Assembly (NCBI RefSeq): GCF_028283685.1
Contig: NZ_JAPWKF010000001.1
Span: forward strand, 434,001 to 498,000
DNA length: 64,000 nt
DNA from: Edaphobacter sp.
GTDB lineage: Bacteria > Acidobacteriota > Terriglobia > Terriglobales > Acidobacteriaceae
Direction: 5' to 3'
The notes below the pieces were generated by a model. That model was given only the letters and a program-made list of their open reading frames with translations. It searched no databases and was not told the DNA's origin. The position numbers and the translations under genes were made by a program. This document shows, piece by piece, positions 49,566-55,224 of the stretch; position 1 is the stretch's first letter, and every line of letters starts with the position of its first letter.

Positions 49566-49856
49566 TTGAAGCGCGAATTGGACATGCTTGTAGTTCAGAT
49601 GCACAGTGCCGGAGTTTCTTATGCTGAAGCCGTTCGTCAGTTCAAACGGCGTTACATTCTGGAAGTTCTCGCGCAGCACAAGGGCAATCAGTGCAAGGCC
49701 GCCGAAGATCTCGGCATGCACCGCAACACGTTGAGCCGCACCCTTGCAGAGCTCGACATGGATACCACTCAGATTCGTCTCGGCATGCGCCGCCCCCCTG
49801 CCAGTGAGCGGCCGCGCCTGGAGAGCATTACCCGCGGGGTTGTCGGAAGCCGATAG
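49566..49856 (+). CDS. Small Fis-type helix-turn-helix protein
   Basis: 96 residues, TTG start with AAGGAG eight bases upstream. Residues 25-65 (FKRRYILEVLAQHKGNQCKAAEDLGMHRNTLSRTLAELDMD) are a Fis/NtrC C-terminal HTH_8 domain. There is no AAA+ or receiver domain, so it is a stand-alone DNA-binding protein, possibly nucleoid-associated or a small regulator. The C-terminal 25 residues are basic. It is 28 bases upstream of the secretin gene and perhaps cotranscribed with it. Confidence 0.85.
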   Translation: MKRELDMLVVQMHSAGVSYAEAVRQFKRRYILEVLAQHKGNQCKAAEDLGMHRNTLSRTLAELDMDTTQIRLGMRRPPASERPRLESITRGVVGSR

Positions 49857-49884
49857 CCACTCCGCTCCGTCTAAACTGCAGTTC

Positions 49885-51852
49885 ATGACGTTTGGCAATC
49901 CACATCGTGCAGCCATGCTGCGACAACTTGTTGTTGCTGCAACATGCATTGTTGTGCCCATGCTGCCATCGACTGCATTTTCGCAACAGGCTGAAAGTGC
50001 AGGGACAAGCCAGTCTTCCCCGACTCCGTCAACCCCTGATTCCTCTAAAAAAACTCTGAGTTCGAAGGCGCTGCGGGAGGCCGATGACGCGTATCTGGCA
50101 GGAGCACGCCTGTTGGACCATGGCGACCTGAAGGGCGCGGAAGAAAAATTTACCCGTGCAGTGAACCTCAACCCAGAAGACAGCGACTACCTCAAAGCCG
50201 CAGCCGTTGCCCGTGAGCATCGAGTTACGCAACTGGTTCAACAGGCGGGTAAGGCACGCATGATGGGTCAGCAGCAGGAGTCGAGCAAGCTTCTGGCAGA
50301 GGCCCAGGCCCTCGATCCTAACAATCGGTTCGTCGCACAACACATGGATCCCTCTTCCGCAGAGAGTGCCTTCCATACGCAGATAGAATCTGTCGCCGAT
50401 ACGCCTGCCGGCCAGTGGTCGCGCAGCACGATGAGAATCGCCGGCCCCATCGCCCTCGATCCGAAAACGGGGAAACAGAGCTTTCTCGTGGAGGCCGATT
50501 CCCGCCAGACGATCCGCCAGGTTCTCTCCCGCTACGGCATCACGGCATACTTCGATGACTCCCTGGAGAGCAAGCACCTCCGCTTCAATCTCGAAGACGC
50601 GACCTATGAACAGGCGACGGGGGTTCTTTACGAGATGTCCACGGCTCTGGCTGTCCCGCTCGATGCCCATAGCGTTTTAATCGTCAAGGACGACGCTGAT
50701 AACCGGCAGAAGTTCGAACGCCTGCTCGAAGAGACTATTTACCTGCCCGGCAAGACCGTCGAAGAGATGAATGAACTTGGGACGCTAATCCGCAGTGTGT
50801 TCGATGTCAAACAAACGGCCATACAGACGACCTCAGGCTCTCTGGTGCTGCGTGCTCCAGAAGATACACTCACGGCGATCAACCTGACGCTGGCGGATAT
50901 GATGGACGGCAATCCCGAGGTTGTGCTGGATATGAGGCTATACAGCATCGATCGGACGTATCAGAAAAATATCGGGACACAGCTGCCGCAACAGATCGGG
51001 GTGTACAACGTCAGCACCGAGGCGAACAGCATTGTCTCCTCGAACCAGTCGATTGTGGATGAGGCCATCGCAAATGGCCTGATTCCAGCTGGCTCCAGCA
51101 ACACCATCATCGCTCTGGCACTTATTGCTTCAGGTCTGGTTTCGAATAGTTTGGTCACCAATACGATCGGCTTCTTCGGTGGCGGCATGACCATGTCAGG
51201 CATCAGCGCCAATGTTCAGACCACGTTCAATCTTTCGCTGAACTCCAGCGATACGCAGGCTGTCGACAACCTGCTGCTTCGCGTGAGCGATCGTCAGTCA
51301 GGAGAGTTTCGCTCCGGAACAAAATATCCGATTACCACCTCGACCTATTCCACCCCCGTCTCCTCCACCGCCTCCGCGCTGGCAGGAACGACGATCAATG
51401 GCGTGAGCGTCTCGCAGCTGCTGGGAACGTCGAGCGCGCTGACGATTCCCCAGATCCAGTACGAAGACCTTGGACTGTTGGTAAAGGCCACGCCGACGGT
51501 TGAGCGCTCCGGCCTGGTGCGCATGAAACTGGAGCTGAAGATCGAGGCGCTCACTGGAAGCACGCTGAACAACATCCCGATCCTTGCCAACCGCTCGTAT
51601 ACCTCCGATGTCACGGTCAAAGATGGCGAGACGACAATGATCGGCAGCTCGATGAGCAAGACAGAAGCAGCAGCGCTCAGCGGATGGCCACTCCTGAGCG
51701 AACTACCAGGCTTTCAAAGCACGACCGGTTATAAGACCACGGAGACGGACTCAAGTGAGCTTATTCTTCTTATTACGCCGCACATCGTCCGTCATCGCTC
51801 GAGTGAGTCAGCTGGTCCTCGCATTGCCTATAACCAGCGCCTCCCGAATTAA
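49885..51852 (+). CDS. Secretin-domain protein (GspD/PilQ-like) with N-terminal TPR
   Basis: About 655 residues from ATG 49885 with a signal peptide ending near STAFSQ (ATG 49915 is an alternative). A TPR-like segment (60-130, GDLKGAEEKFTRAVNLNPEDSDYLKAA) is followed by a secretin/TonB N-type fold (VLSRYGITAYFDDSLESKHLRFNLEDATYEQA) and an N1-like domain. The C-terminal secretin barrel shows VLDMRLYSIDRTYQKNIG, VERSGLVRMKLELKIEAL, TSDVTVKDGETTMIGSSMSKTE and SSELILLITPHIVRHR. Forms an outer-membrane ring. Whether it serves type II secretion, type IV pili or another machine cannot be told, since no partner genes adjoin it. Confidence 0.88.
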   Translation: MTFGNPHRAAMLRQLVVAATCIVVPMLPSTAFSQQAESAGTSQSSPTPSTPDSSKKTLSSKALREADDAYLAGARLLDHGDLKGAEEKFTRAVNLNPEDSDYLKAAAVAREHRVTQLVQQAGKARMMGQQQESSKLLAEAQALDPNNRFVAQHMDPSSAESAFHTQIESVADTPAGQWSRSTMRIAGPIALDPKTGKQSFLVEADSRQTIRQVLSRYGITAYFDDSLESKHLRFNLEDATYEQATGVLYEMSTALAVPLDAHSVLIVKDDADNRQKFERLLEETIYLPGKTVEEMNELGTLIRSVFDVKQTAIQTTSGSLVLRAPEDTLTAINLTLADMMDGNPEVVLDMRLYSIDRTYQKNIGTQLPQQIGVYNVSTEANSIVSSNQSIVDEAIANGLIPAGSSNTIIALALIASGLVSNSLVTNTIGFFGGGMTMSGISANVQTTFNLSLNSSDTQAVDNLLLRVSDRQSGEFRSGTKYPITTSTYSTPVSSTASALAGTTINGVSVSQLLGTSSALTIPQIQYEDLGLLVKATPTVERSGLVRMKLELKIEALTGSTLNNIPILANRSYTSDVTVKDGETTMIGSSMSKTEAAALSGWPLLSELPGFQSTTGYKTTETDSSELILLITPHIVRHRSSESAGPRIAYNQRLPN

Positions 51853-51895
51853 ATGCCAAGCTCCCCAGACACAGTAACTTCCACAGGCAGATGGT

Positions 51896-51924
51896 TTGAC
51901 CGAAGGGAGACTGATCTATATACT
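51896..51924 (+). promoter_or_regulatory. Promoter of the tRNA-Gly/tRNA-Cys pair
   Basis: TTGACC (51896-51901), a 17-base spacer and TATACT (51919-51924), both five of six to consensus, ending 13 bases before the tRNA-Gly gene. Confidence 0.8.
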
Positions 51925-51937
51925 TATTTTTGTGAGA

Positions 51938-52012
51938 GCGGGAGTAGCTCAGTGGTAGAGTGCTTCCTTGCCAAGGAAGATGTCGCCGGTTCGACCCCGG
52001 TCTCCCGCTCCA
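51938..52012 (+). tRNA. tRNA-Gly (anticodon GCC)
   Basis: 75 bases with encoded CCA. Acceptor GCGGGAG pairs with CTCCCGC, anticodon stem CTTCC/GGAAG with loop TTGCCAA gives GCC, and the T-arm contains CGGTTCGACCCCG. Confidence 0.97.
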
Positions 52013-52077
52013 AATTTGTCCCTGCCTGCGTTACACTTCACCTATACAATTTGCAGGGCTTATTGATAGCCCACCGA

Positions 52078-52152
52078 GGCGCGGTACCCAAGTGGTAAGG
52101 GAGAGGTCTGCAAAACCTTTATGCGTCGGTTCGATCCCGACCCGCGCCTCCA
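52078..52152 (+). tRNA. tRNA-Cys (anticodon GCA)
   Basis: 75 bases with encoded CCA. Acceptor GGCGCGG pairs with CCGCGCC, anticodon stem GAGGT/ACCTT with loop CTGCAAA gives GCA, and the T-arm contains CGGTTCGATCCCG. It shares the promoter upstream of tRNA-Gly. 52153-52405 holds no gene I can support. Confidence 0.96.
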
Positions 52153-52405
52153 AATTCTCCTCCAAGTTCACATGATCTTCCCTCCTCTGCTCGTTTCGAG
52201 CGATGCCGCAGGAGGGATTTTCTCGTCCTGTTCCGCGACTCGAAGGCGATCGCGGAACGCCTGCAGCAACTGCCGACGATCCGGAGCTCCCGCAAAGAAT
52301 GATCGAGGCTCTACTGCAGGGATACAACACATCGGAGGATGGGTTGATTATGGCGATCGCCGAGAAAAGATCAGGCAAGAGGTAGCTGGCAGAGCCTGAT
52401 TACGC

Positions 52406-52624
52406 TTAACAGCCACCACCGACAAAATGCACCATCTCGACGCGGTCCCCTTCGATCAGGGAGACCTGCGCCCATGTGGTACGTGGAACGATCTCACCGT
52501 TACGCTCGATGGCGACGCGATCGGATTTGAGCCCCAGCTCCTGGACGAGAGCATCGACGCTGGGAGACTCGCCGAGAGATTCAAAGCTGCGGGACTGTCC
52601 ATTGAGCACAATGTTGATGGGCAT
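52406..52624 (-). CDS. thiS: ThiS sulfur carrier with an extra C-terminal Cys
   Basis: 72 residues, a beta-grasp fold (MPINIVLNGQSRSF ... VAIERNGEIVPRTTW, EGDRVEMVHFVGGG). ThiS carries sulfur as a thiocarboxylate on its terminal Gly for thiazole synthesis. Here the gene ends GGT GGT GGC TGT TAA, giving GGGC, so a Cys follows the Gly-Gly. Activation would need removal of that residue, as in QbsE-like carriers. It lies 177 bases downstream of thiD on the same strand; no thiG, thiF or thiazole enzyme is in the window. Confidence 0.9.
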   Translation of the reverse strand: MPINIVLNGQSRSFESLGESPSVDALVQELGLKSDRVAIERNGEIVPRTTWAQVSLIEGDRVEMVHFVGGGC

Positions 52625-52801
52625 CTTTAAAGCCTAGCAGGTCATCCGCTATAGCCATACGGAGCGAGAGGCGAGTCACTTCTTTTTGTAAGCATTCATC
52701 CAGTCATCAAAGATCTCGCGGCTGAGACACCGGAGTAGATCCTGGCTTCATGCTCAAGCAATGTAATGAGGAGCGCATGGGAGGCCGTCTGGAACGAAGG
52801 A

Positions 52802-53602
52802 TCAGCGCTGCACCCATAAATGGTTGAGCGGGCCGCGGCCATGACCGATGGGATTGGCCTCTCGGATGGCTCCAGCGACGTAGTGCTTGGCTTGTGTTGC
52901 CGCCGCCAGCGGATCATCCCCAAGAAGCAGGCGGCTGAGCAACGCGCTTGAAAGAGCACAGCCGGTTCCGTGAGTCGACCTGCTCTCGATCATCTCCCCG
53001 GGAATCCAATGGGCTTGCGAAGAAGCGGAAGGCAGCACCAGGTCGTCGGGCTGAGGCAGATGGCCTCCTGTGGCCAGTACGTTGAGCTGCGGCCAGCGTA
53101 TCTGCAACGCGCTCGCTGCGGGCTCAACCTCTGCGCGTGAAGTAACAGGAAGCCCAGTGAGAAGGCTCAACTCGTCCAGGTTCGGGGTGATCCAGCCAAC
53201 CAGGGGGAGAAGGCGGTCTCGCAGCAGAATGAGTCCCTCCGCAGAGAGCAGTTCCCTGCCGGAGCTGGAGCGCAGAACCGGGTCGAGGACAATTGGAGTG
53301 CCGGGACGCTCGGCGGAAAGCCGTTCAAGATAGTCCGCCAGGGTGGCGACGATCTCTGCAGTGTCGAGCATGCCGATCTTTACGCCATCCGGAGGAAGAT
53401 CCTCGTGCAAGCAATCGAGGGTATCTCTCAGAAGTTCGGCTGGGACAGGCTGACTAGCGCGGACTCCCAACGTCGACTGCACCGTGAGACTCGTAATGGC
53501 AGAGGTCCCAAAGTGTCCGTGAGCGGCAAAGACCATCAGGTCGGCGGTGATGCCGGCTCCTGAAGAGGGGTCAAAGCCGGCAATCGTCAAAGCAGTCTTC
53601 AT
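52802..53602 (-). CDS. thiD: HMP/HMP-phosphate kinase
   Basis: 266 residues from ATG 53602, the usual ThiD length. The frame extends to 53716, but that part is low-complexity and AT-rich. Motifs: LTIAGFDPSSGAGITADLM, TSLTVQSTLGV, VKIGMLDTAEIV, VLDPVLRSSSG, TPNLDELSLLTG and STHGTGCALSSALLSRL with the catalytic Cys/Asp area. It phosphorylates hydroxymethylpyrimidine twice in thiamine synthesis. I see no TPP riboswitch upstream. Confidence 0.92.
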   Translation of the reverse strand: MKTALTIAGFDPSSGAGITADLMVFAAHGHFGTSAITSLTVQSTLGVRASQPVPAELLRDTLDCLHEDLPPDGVKIGMLDTAEIVATLADYLERLSAERPGTPIVLDPVLRSSSGRELLSAEGLILLRDRLLPLVGWITPNLDELSLLTGLPVTSRAEVEPAASALQIRWPQLNVLATGGHLPQPDDLVLPSASSQAHWIPGEMIESRSTHGTGCALSSALLSRLLLGDDPLAAATQAKHYVAGAIREANPIGHGRGPLNHLWVQR

Positions 53603-53822
53603 AAGGCGAAATTCATCGTCGACAGCCGGAAAATGGCCGAAGGAGCCTTTTTTTGAACTTTTTGAAAAATTAGCAGGTTTGGAAAAAAATGTCGTAAAAA
53701 GCCGATTTTTGGCCAATACTCGCCCAAAACAGACCGAATATCGGCATCACACTCAGTGATTACCTTTAGCACAGAAGGCGGGGTGCGGGCAAGCCAATTT
53801 ACCCCTTAACCTAAGCAGCTGA

Positions 53823-53851
53823 TTGACTTAGCCGTTTTGAAACGGGACAAT
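53823..53851 (+). promoter_or_regulatory. Predicted promoter of rlpA
   Basis: TTGACT (53823-53828), a 17-base spacer and GACAAT (53846-53851). The start point would be near 53858, at or next to the rlpA ATG, which would make the mRNA nearly leaderless. Confidence 0.4.
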
Positions 53852-53857
53852 TAAGGA

Positions 53858-54394
53858 ATGAACGATGCCATGAAGATAATTCCTGTGAAGAGAGACGGAA
53901 CCGTCTCCACCAAACTTGGAGTTGCCGTCGTGACACTGCTTGTGGCGCTTGGAGTCACAGCTTCGGCAAGCGATGCTTCGCCGTCACAGATGCAGAGCCA
54001 GAATACTCCCCAAAGCAGCAAGCCACGCAAGTGGTACCAGGTCGGCGAAGCCTCCTGGTACGGCAAGTACTTTCAGGGCAAGAAGACCGCAAACGGCGAA
54101 GAGTTCGACATGAACAAGCTGACCTGCGCTCACCGCAGCCTTCCCCTGAACACCTGGATCAAAGTCACGAATCTGAAGAACCGCCGCTCTATCTTTGTCC
54201 GCGTCAACGACCGTGGCCCGATGCCGGAAGACCGCATCGTGGATTTATCGTACGCCGCCGCAAAGGCGCTACATATCACCGGATTGGGTAAGGTCAAGCT
54301 CGAGACGTTACGTCCGAATGATTCGGACATGATGCGTCAGCTGATCGCCCAGGTTCGTATGCCGATCCTGGCTGATACCGGCACCGGGATGTAA
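53858..54394 (+). CDS. rlpA: RlpA-like septal ring lytic transglycosylase
   Basis: 178 residues. An N-terminal membrane anchor or signal (LGVAVVTLLVALGVTASASDA) is followed by a DPBB domain: GEASWYGKYFQGKKTANGEEFDM, LTCAHRSLPLNTWIKVTNL, VRVNDRGPMPEDRIVDLS. Glu81, His92 and Asp118 match the catalytic residues described for Pseudomonas RlpA, which cleaves naked glycan strands at the septum. There is no SPOR domain, so septal targeting would need another route. Confidence 0.9.
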   Translation: MNDAMKIIPVKRDGTVSTKLGVAVVTLLVALGVTASASDASPSQMQSQNTPQSSKPRKWYQVGEASWYGKYFQGKKTANGEEFDMNKLTCAHRSLPLNTWIKVTNLKNRRSIFVRVNDRGPMPEDRIVDLSYAAAKALHITGLGKVKLETLRPNDSDMMRQLIAQVRMPILADTGTGM

Positions 54395-54423
54395 TCTCCG
54401 CAGTTCCCTTCCACAACACCCTG

Positions 54424-54466
54424 TTTAGCGTGGAGGAGCGGGCAATTCAGTCCCCTCCACGCTAAA
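54424..54466. repeat. Long inverted repeat between rlpA and pyrF
   Basis: TTTAGCGTGGAGG (54424-54436) and CCTCCACGCTAAA (54454-54466) are perfect 13-base arms separated by 17 bases. It ends eight bases before the pyrF start. It may terminate rlpA, although no U-tract follows, or regulate pyrF. Confidence 0.75.
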
Positions 54467-54474
54467 CTGAACAG

Positions 54475-55224
54475 GTGACGACTCCACTTAGCAGCTTGGC
54501 GAAGACAGATGCCATCATCTCGGCGCGAGACAGGATTGCCGTTGCGCTCGACGTGCCGGGAAGCCGTGAGGCACTCGACCTGGCAGACAGGCTGGGAGAT
54601 GCCTGCAGCTGGCTGAAGGTCGGTATGGAGCTGTACTACGCCTCAGGCAACAGCCTCATTGCAGAACTTCGTTCTCGCGGATTTCGCGTATTTCTCGATC
54701 TGAAGCTGCACGATATTCCTAATACCGTGGCGGGAGCGGTTCGCTCCGTGAGCCAGACCGGAGCCGAACTACTCACCGTTCATGCCTGCGGCGGTCCAGC
54801 CATGTTGGAGGCTGCGGCTAAGGCTGCTGAGACGCCCGGAGCTCCACGCCTGCTGGCCGTGACCGTGCTCACCAGCATGGATGCACATGAGCTGAATGCA
54901 GCCGGTGTTCCCGGCCTCCCCGGGCCACAGGTCGTCCGGCTGGCAACGTTAGCCAAAGATTCAGGTATTGACGGAATGGTCTGCTCTCCCGAGGAGGTCT
55001 CAGCAGTCCGCGAGGCCACCGGACCGGATTCGATCCTTGTGGTACCGGGAATTCGCCCCAAGGGATATCCCACTGACGATCAGCGTCGCATCGCTACGGC
55101 AGGCGAGACGATTTCACGGGGAGCTTCCATCCTGGTAGTGGGGAGACCGATCACACGCGCCGCCGATCCAGCAGCTGCGGCACGTGCCATCGTCGATGAG
55201 ATTGCTTCTGCTGAATTGGCCTAG
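54475..55224 (+). CDS. pyrF: Orotidine 5'-phosphate decarboxylase
   Basis: 249 residues, GTG start. Motifs: RIAVALDVPGSREALDLADRLGD, the catalytic FLDLKLHDIPNTVAGA, LLTVHACGGPAMLEAA, and VVPGIRPKG ... GASILVVGRPITRAADP for phosphate binding. It decarboxylates OMP to UMP. Its TAG stop shares the palindromic CTAG with the stop of the convergent gene. Other pyrimidine genes are not adjacent. Confidence 0.95.
   Translation: MTTPLSSLAKTDAIISARDRIAVALDVPGSREALDLADRLGDACSWLKVGMELYYASGNSLIAELRSRGFRVFLDLKLHDIPNTVAGAVRSVSQTGAELLTVHACGGPAMLEAAAKAAETPGAPRLLAVTVLTSMDAHELNAAGVPGLPGPQVVRLATLAKDSGIDGMVCSPEEVSAVREATGPDSILVVPGIRPKGYPTDDQRRIATAGETISRGASILVVGRPITRAADPAAAARAIVDEIASAELA

Follow-up and report, generated by a model that had tools for sequence, protein, structure and literature searches.

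The sulfur carrier protein ThiS is usually described as ending in a free Gly-Gly, and in the mycobacterial CysO-CysM-Mec system Mec releases cysteine from CysO-Cys. Carriers that run on beyond this point include QbsE of Pseudomonas, which ends in GGCF, and the Ptm carriers of a platensimycin-producing Streptomyces. In the sections of PMC6006322 used here, two of the Ptm carriers are described as capped after GG, PtmS2 by MV and PtmS3 by C; no thioacid products were made once the JAMM gene ptmS1 had been inactivated, whereas they were not abolished when only ptmS2 was inactivated, and use of the capped carriers is inferred by the authors. The same sections place the thiocarboxylate on an adenylated C-terminal Gly and cite QbsD as the protease exposing QbsE, a carrier with residues after GG. 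In Deinococcus, according to the part of PMC8832034 drawn on, DRJAMM cuts MoaD-MoaE and leaves a C-terminal Gly. The relevant passages of Iyer et al. 2006 (PMC1779556) note ThiS-ThiG and MoaD-MoaE fusions and suggest that JAB may free the carrier C-terminus, while stressing the absence of JAB from thiamine and molybdenum cofactor neighbourhoods; operons that combine cysteine synthase with both a carrier and JAB, one of them acidobacterial, are also listed there.

Capped carriers, JAMM maturation, ThiS-ThiG fusions and a proposed JAB role for fused ThiS and MoaD are already in print. Drifting tails on a ThiS of primary metabolism were not found in the open-licence literature, outside which most subscription papers lie and whose index confuses ThiS with 'this'; neither tails on every carrier of a genus nor a test of co-occurrence between carrier extension and JAMM was found in the same literature, which is weak evidence of absence.

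ThiS of the window is encoded with one residue after Gly-Gly-Gly

The window, i.e. the whole stretch of 64,000 nucleotides of Edaphobacter DNA that was analysed, contains the following features at thiS:

52406..52624, minus strand: thiS, encoding a sulfur carrier protein ThiS precursor of 72 aa that ends in HFVGGGC (ORF; TIGR01683 and PF02597 above cut-offs)
52412..52420, minus strand: GGT GGT GGC, the Gly-Gly-Gly end of the predicted mature protein, lining up with the ends of the chains 1tyg_B and 1f0z_A
52409..52411, minus strand: TGT, a one-residue C-terminal tail (Cys) that is predicted to be removed (from the sequence, and from tails of 0-35 residues in the genus)
52406..52408, minus strand: TAA, the stop codon of thiS
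52802..53716, minus strand: a thiD-like gene (phosphomethylpyrimidine kinase) upstream of thiS (PF08543, 224.7 bits; the start, at the 53716 end, is a mechanical call, and the PF08543 match starts only at residue 49)

The initial annotation had reported a Cys after Gly-Gly-Gly, and this was confirmed: the reverse complement of 52406-52420 reads GGT GGT GGC TGT TAA (Gly-Gly-Gly-Cys-stop) at the end of the 72-aa ORF. The protein scored 68.9 bits against the NCBIfam equivalog TIGR01683 (thiS; cut-off 37.45) and 56.7 bits against Pfam PF02597 (cut-off 22.5), and positions 1-64 of 64 of TIGR01683 fall on ThiS residues 5-71, such that the window ThiS lies above the curated cut-off across the full model and the Cys is the sole residue outside it on the C-terminal side. 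The model ends at Gly-Gly; that the Gly-Gly be terminal is not part of it and is what separates mature ThiS from precursor forms, and the encoded C-terminus of the window ThiS is not Gly-Gly, one Cys following GGG. The chains 1tyg_B and 1f0z_A, the ThiS of B. subtilis and of E. coli, align up to residue 71 of the window ThiS and stop at that residue, which places the single Cys one residue past the functional end. The third Gly is expected to be the thiocarboxylate carrier.

A ThiD match adjoins thiS in 25 of 30 loci of the genus. The ThiG partner is encoded away from thiS (C9:547215-547949, 366.1 bits) and three ThiF-family matches occur in the same genome. Neither a TPP riboswitch nor any other Rfam element was found near thiS and thiD (51800-54500), where only two tRNAs passed the gathering threshold. 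Past the 3' end of thiS, the plus strand carries genes for tRNA-Gly(GCC) at 51938-52012 and tRNA-Cys(GCA) at 52078-52152, and an ORF of 702 aa at 49744-51852, secretin-type-like by eye, ends approximately 550 bases short of the same 3' end.

Tails on ThiS are the rule in the genus

The 37 genomes of the genus contain 39 ThiS copies, of which 35 continue after HFVGGG with mutually unrelated tails of 1-35 residues, many of them only one or two residues long (for example C, IDA, AREN, MPIN, CGVVD, V, TT, WK and AVDPRAR, with M at locus L042), and four copies have no tail after GGG. The body ends in HFVGGG in 38 of the 39, and mean identity is 58% over the body and 98% over the last seven residues, while the first tail residue is the same in 12% of tail pairs. 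The residues after GGG are, as judged by sequence comparison, the most variable part of ThiS. As most ThiS of the genus (35/39) continue past GGG and Cys is the first tail residue in only 5 of the 35 tails, the Cys by itself is unremarkable, and the distinguishing feature is the presence of any tail, rather than the Cys that the initial annotation had singled out. Cys was likewise rejected as a conserved element of ThiS, being merely one among many tail residues. An alignment of ThiS C-termini among relatives, which that annotation had suggested as a check, thus bore out the extension as common but not the Cys. Of the ThiS in another 23 genomes, from the order and class, 12 are extended (10 by tails and 2 by fusion to ThiG) and 11 end at GGG; no ThiS match was obtained in one of the 61 genomes, which is 54% complete.

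These comparisons also bear on the possibility that TGT is a sequencing or assembly error and that the true ThiS ends at GGG. The four tailless copies are in keeping with such an error, as is the frameshifted appearance, by eye, of the cysM-like and moeB-like genes of this assembly, which means that indel errors may exist. It is nevertheless very unlikely, given that tails are found on 35 of 39 copies, that a second copy in the genus (L035) likewise ends in GGGC and that there is no long homopolymer around the TGT codon. The general tail phenomenon is independent of this codon.

All four carriers of the genome are tailed

The genome of the window encodes four PF02597 proteins (ThiS/MoaD-like carriers), every one of which has a tail:

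Adjoining moaE: MoaD carrier, ending in GGAR (PF02597; MoaD family match of 66.0 bits, just under the cut-off of 66.15)
Window: ThiS carrier, ending in GGGC (PF02597)
Adjoining thrC (TIGR00260, 271.7 bits, cut-off 167.1): thrC-linked carrier, ending in GGRC (PF02597)
G000 C1:745991-746287 (approximately 5992-6288 of L072), adjoining a cysM-like gene: CysO-like carrier, ending in GGSACCSCCPLL (PF02597)

The name CysO is an assumption that follows the gene neighbourhood; the nearest NCBIfam family of this carrier is SAMP1, below the cut-off, and its cysM-like neighbour also scores below the cut-off (319 bits compared with 394), the ORF being cut short. In the stretches collected from the genus, this genome included, the MoaD (20/20), CysO-like (25/25) and thrC-linked (17/17) carriers are all extended.

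Some extensions are whole proteins. MoaD-MoaE fusions (L076 and L078) and a CysO-MoeB fusion carrying a ThiF/MoeB domain (L101) occur within the genus, with the domains verified in L076 and L101. At two acidobacterial loci, L151 and L184, the reading frame of ThiS continues for 294 and 298 residues into a membrane protein that looks zinc-ribbon-like (DUF3667 was matched in L151, and L184 was assigned by its likeness to L151), and in an Omnitrophica bin (L210) ThiS is in frame with DNA topoisomerase I; the genomes of these three loci (G076, G109 and G135) each contain a JAMM gene. Ubiquitin occurs fused to ribosomal proteins, and the ThiS-DUF3667 and ThiS-topoisomerase fusions may be read as parallels of that arrangement, found in single metagenome bins in which errors are possible. 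The MoaD-MoaE, CysO-MoeB, ThiS-ThiG, ThiS-DUF3667 and ThiS-topoisomerase I fusions are all expected to be inactive unless cut.

The first residue of the tail differs in composition from those behind it. Over the four carrier families of the genus, with three whole-domain fusions omitted, D, E, K, Q, H, N or P account for 2 of 94 first tail residues compared with 120 of 506 later ones (Fisher p 4e-8), or for 2 of 81 compared with 119 of 490 once identical tails are removed, values that are inflated by shared tail ancestry. On these counts, the first tail residue looks to be under selection in this genus. A universal rule for this residue was rejected, since E, D, K, R and N occur outside the genus; 16 of 20 ThiG fusions start with D after GG.

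Cys is the first residue in 26 of the same 94 tails, compared with 3.5% in translated 3' flanks, and GG-C is found among known capped carriers (PtmS3, in the sections of PMC6006322 used here). Both observations would favour the Cys-based sulfur route predicted in the initial annotation. On such a route the C-terminal Cys would itself participate in transferring sulfur, for example as a persulfide site or through a thioester formed when the Gly-Cys bond undergoes an N-to-S acyl shift. However, a Cys that was required would be conserved, and among ThiS of the genus Cys starts only 5 of 35 tails, four copies have no tail at all and the residues after GGG are highly variable; the prediction is left without support, and participation of the Cys in sulfur transfer is considered extremely unlikely.

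The tails of the CysO-like carriers are Cys-rich, with 51 Cys among 198 residues (24 short tails, from genus loci L096-L115 and L132-L135 and the genome of the window) compared with 9 among 172 in the 35 ThiS tails. The DNA TGTTGTAGCTGTTGT of the CysO-like tail, encoding CCSCC, is kept in G000, G010, G012 and G027. The Cys-rich tail possibly binds a metal, carries a persulfide or acts as a translation signal that responds to cysteine.

A single JAMM peptidase is encoded apart from thiS

The genome of the window contains one Prok-JAB (JAMM) match, a protein of 153 aa (PF14464, 76.9 bits):

Contig C1, approximately 745,527-745,988: JAMM gene, in the order cysM - JAMM - cysO-like - moeB (PF14464)

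Its active site is complete, with Glu, two His, Ser and Asp, and the same residues are present in 55 of 55 aligned JAMM rows, of which one was taken per scanned locus by the HxH-Ser-Asp motif, such that the Glu alone counts independently. Among solved structures, the one nearest to this JAMM by sequence is 2kcq, and a score of 81.6 bits against the haloarchaeal desampylase family NF041370 (cut-off 130) indicates a relative rather than a member. A JAMM gene is present in 58 of the 61 genomes of the genus, order and class, this one included, and in 43 of 43 of good quality; it is absent from G007, G019 and G048, which are 73-85% complete and were also negative with a second profile. JAMM and the CysO-like carrier stand side by side in 25 of 25 stretches from the genus, which is not an independent count as these stretches were selected near JAMM or CysO-like matches. 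By eye, the cysM-like and moeB-like ORFs (approximately 5430 and 7440 of L072; G000 C1) switch frame near their ends, and these switches seem to be assembly indels or disrupted genes.

It had been suggested in the initial annotation that a JAMM gene be sought near thiamine or cysteine genes. The second part of this suggestion held, in that the gene adjoins a cysteine-synthase-like gene, but the first did not, as the 110 thiS loci searched (30 of approximately 3.2 kb and 80 of up to 10 kb) contained no JAMM gene. Because none was found in these loci, the JAMM would act on ThiS in trans. Two features of the described capped-carrier systems are present, namely residues after GG (GGGC) and a genomic JAMM with a complete active site, whereas clustering of the JAMM gene with the capped carrier gene, as for PtmS1 and PtmS2, is not seen for thiS, the JAMM adjoining the CysO-like carrier instead.

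Extension of ThiS co-occurs with JAMM

In the Acidobacteria, JAMM is present with or without a tail and discriminates little, and because it is nearly universal there the comparison was moved to genomes in which it varies. Among named genomes, represented by the best 80 ThiS loci of a longer list, 36 ThiS end at GGG, 24 are tailed and 20 are ThiS-ThiG fusions, and JAMM (E at most 1e-15) was found with 26 of the 36, 23 of the 24 and 19 of the 20, respectively, i.e. with 42 of 44 extended ThiS compared with 26 of 36 unextended ThiS (Fisher p 0.005). JAMM was not detected in the genome of the tailed locus L181 (G106), and in that of the fused locus L178 (G103) the JAMM match is only partial. At least five of the 80 loci (L150, L153, L161, L190 and L204) are contigs of genomes among the 61 relatives, and the two samples are not fully independent. 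The record at L190, CAJCHN010000093.1, is titled Rhodanobacteraceae but is apparently the same contig as G006:C93 of the genus of the window; it is probably mislabelled, and JAMM also lies at matching places in G115 and G006.

In the Alphaproteobacteria, 290 genomes were searched with a ThiS-ThiG fusion and PF14464; of the 174 with matches, 150 were classified, and the other 24 were excluded because their matches were not strong enough or not listed. JAMM was present at E at most 1e-10 in 66 of 67 genomes with a fused ThiS-ThiG compared with 8 of 83 with a separate ThiG, and at 1e-15 in 63 of 67 compared with 3 of 83. The fused genome G334 had no JAMM detected even with a second profile. Separate ThiS ends were read in 39 of the 83 genomes, of which 36 stop exactly at GG, 30 of them without JAMM (E up to 1e-10) and 6 with JAMM, and three are tailed, two with JAMM (G373 and G267) and one, G379, which ends in GGGM, without a detectable JAMM. 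In G382 and G321 (L246 and L247), ThiG is 86-87% identical to the Sphingomonas pseudosanguinis query yet unfused and ThiS stops at GGG; G382 is without JAMM and G321 retains it, which is possibly indicative of a fusion that was reversed, followed by loss of JAMM.

A ThiG tree was built from 80 self-chosen alphaproteobacterial genomes: 41 drawn from the 67 with a fusion, including G334, and 39 drawn from the 83 with a separate ThiG, including all 8 that are JAMM-positive. This tree requires at least 8 changes in extension and at least 11 in the presence of JAMM. A sign test of extension against JAMM over supported branches offered only 2 and 5 independent pairs (p = 1) and had no power. Extension and JAMM agree in 72 of the 80 genomes, an agreement reached by 0 of 2000 kept simulations in each direction when each trait was simulated independently along the best tree (means of 45 and 47 and maxima of 66 and 64 under the null), in a procedure that trusts a weakly supported single-gene ThiG tree and discards runs whose state count differs from the observed one by more than 8.

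Proposed maturation of the carriers

The QbsD-like JAMM maturation step envisaged in the initial annotation is supported by the JAMM of this genome with its complete site, its presence in 58 of 61 genomes and the alphaproteobacterial co-occurrence (66/67 compared with 8/83). The preferred reading, with a probability of approximately 0.8, is that the JAMM would trim ThiS and the other carriers in trans and thereby expose the terminal Gly. As regards the cut, its position and the JAMM as the cutting enzyme, we infer the following course: the gene in the window would encode an ordinary ThiS made as a precursor, a JAMM/MPN+ metallopeptidase encoded elsewhere would cut after the last Gly of HFVGGG to give a free Gly carboxylate, and the freed Gly would then be adenylated and sulfurated by a ThiF/MoeB-type enzyme, for ThiG. 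One JAMM would mature all four ThiS/MoaD-like carriers of the genome. If, as proposed, JAMM reads the folded carrier and GG, the residues behind GG would be little constrained and would drift, with a single Cys as the outcome here, 0-35 residues in relatives and whole domains in some. A broader form of this reading, in which all carriers of the genus (for thiamine, for the molybdenum cofactor, cysM-linked and thrC-linked) would be ubiquitin-like precursors with drifting tails and one JAMM their general maturase, is favoured by a little.

The short tail might instead be removed by a general carboxypeptidase or another peptidase, which would suit the many tails of one or two residues, the GGGM end of G379, where no JAMM was found, and the missing genetic link between thiS and JAMM in 110 loci. 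The shortest tails could be accounted for by a carboxypeptidase, but long ones and fusions could not: where the tail reaches 35 residues, or where ThiG, DUF3667 or topoisomerase I is fused to ThiS, an endopeptidase has to cut at Gly, and extension goes with the presence of JAMM, which makes this alternative unlikely relative to trimming by JAMM. That the tailed ThiS functions as it is, with an activating enzyme that tolerates or bypasses the tail, is highly implausible, since the thiocarboxylate forms on an adenylated C-terminal Gly (in the sections of PMC6006322 used here) and 36 of the 39 separate alphaproteobacterial ThiS stop at GG, 30 of these 36 without JAMM.

It appears that in this genus the carriers, a ThiS of primary metabolism among them, depend on a JAMM peptidase acting in trans. 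Trimming of this kind gives a testable function for the JAMM genes found in Acidobacteria and in those Alphaproteobacteria whose ThiS and ThiG are fused, provides a bacterial parallel to ubiquitin precursors that extends to ThiS fused to unrelated proteins, and would explain odd ThiS C-termini as harmless drift. Were the general-maturase reading true, the synthesis of both thiamine and the molybdenum cofactor would depend on a deubiquitinase-like enzyme, and one step could gate sulfur trafficking.

Comparison with described systems

A close likeness is to the Ptm system (PMC6006322, as far as the sections used here describe it), in which a carrier, PtmS3, is capped by one Cys as in the window ThiS and there is one JAMM gene. 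The Ptm carriers, however, serve a natural-product pathway, whereas the capped carrier here is the thiamine carrier; the Ptm genome keeps two carriers with a free GG, whereas all four are capped here; and PtmS1 is clustered with PtmS2 (which is not stated for PtmS3), whereas the JAMM here is unlinked to thiS. In QbsE and QbsD, residues after GG are likewise exposed by a protease, but within a dedicated biosynthetic cluster, again in contrast to the unlinked JAMM. DRJAMM, in the part of PMC8832034 drawn on, is a bacterial JAMM that activates a carrier fused to its partner, and MoaD-MoaE fusions are also found in the genus of the window; it acts on MoaD in a fixed fusion, whereas the case made here concerns ThiS with drifting tails. 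The passages of Iyer et al. 2006 (PMC1779556) that were drawn on do not mention tails on standalone ThiS or a co-occurrence test, both of which are reported here. Lastly, the mycobacterial CysO-CysM-Mec system comprises the same kinds of gene as the cysM - JAMM - cysO-like - moeB order of this genome, for whose JAMM a wider processing role is proposed.
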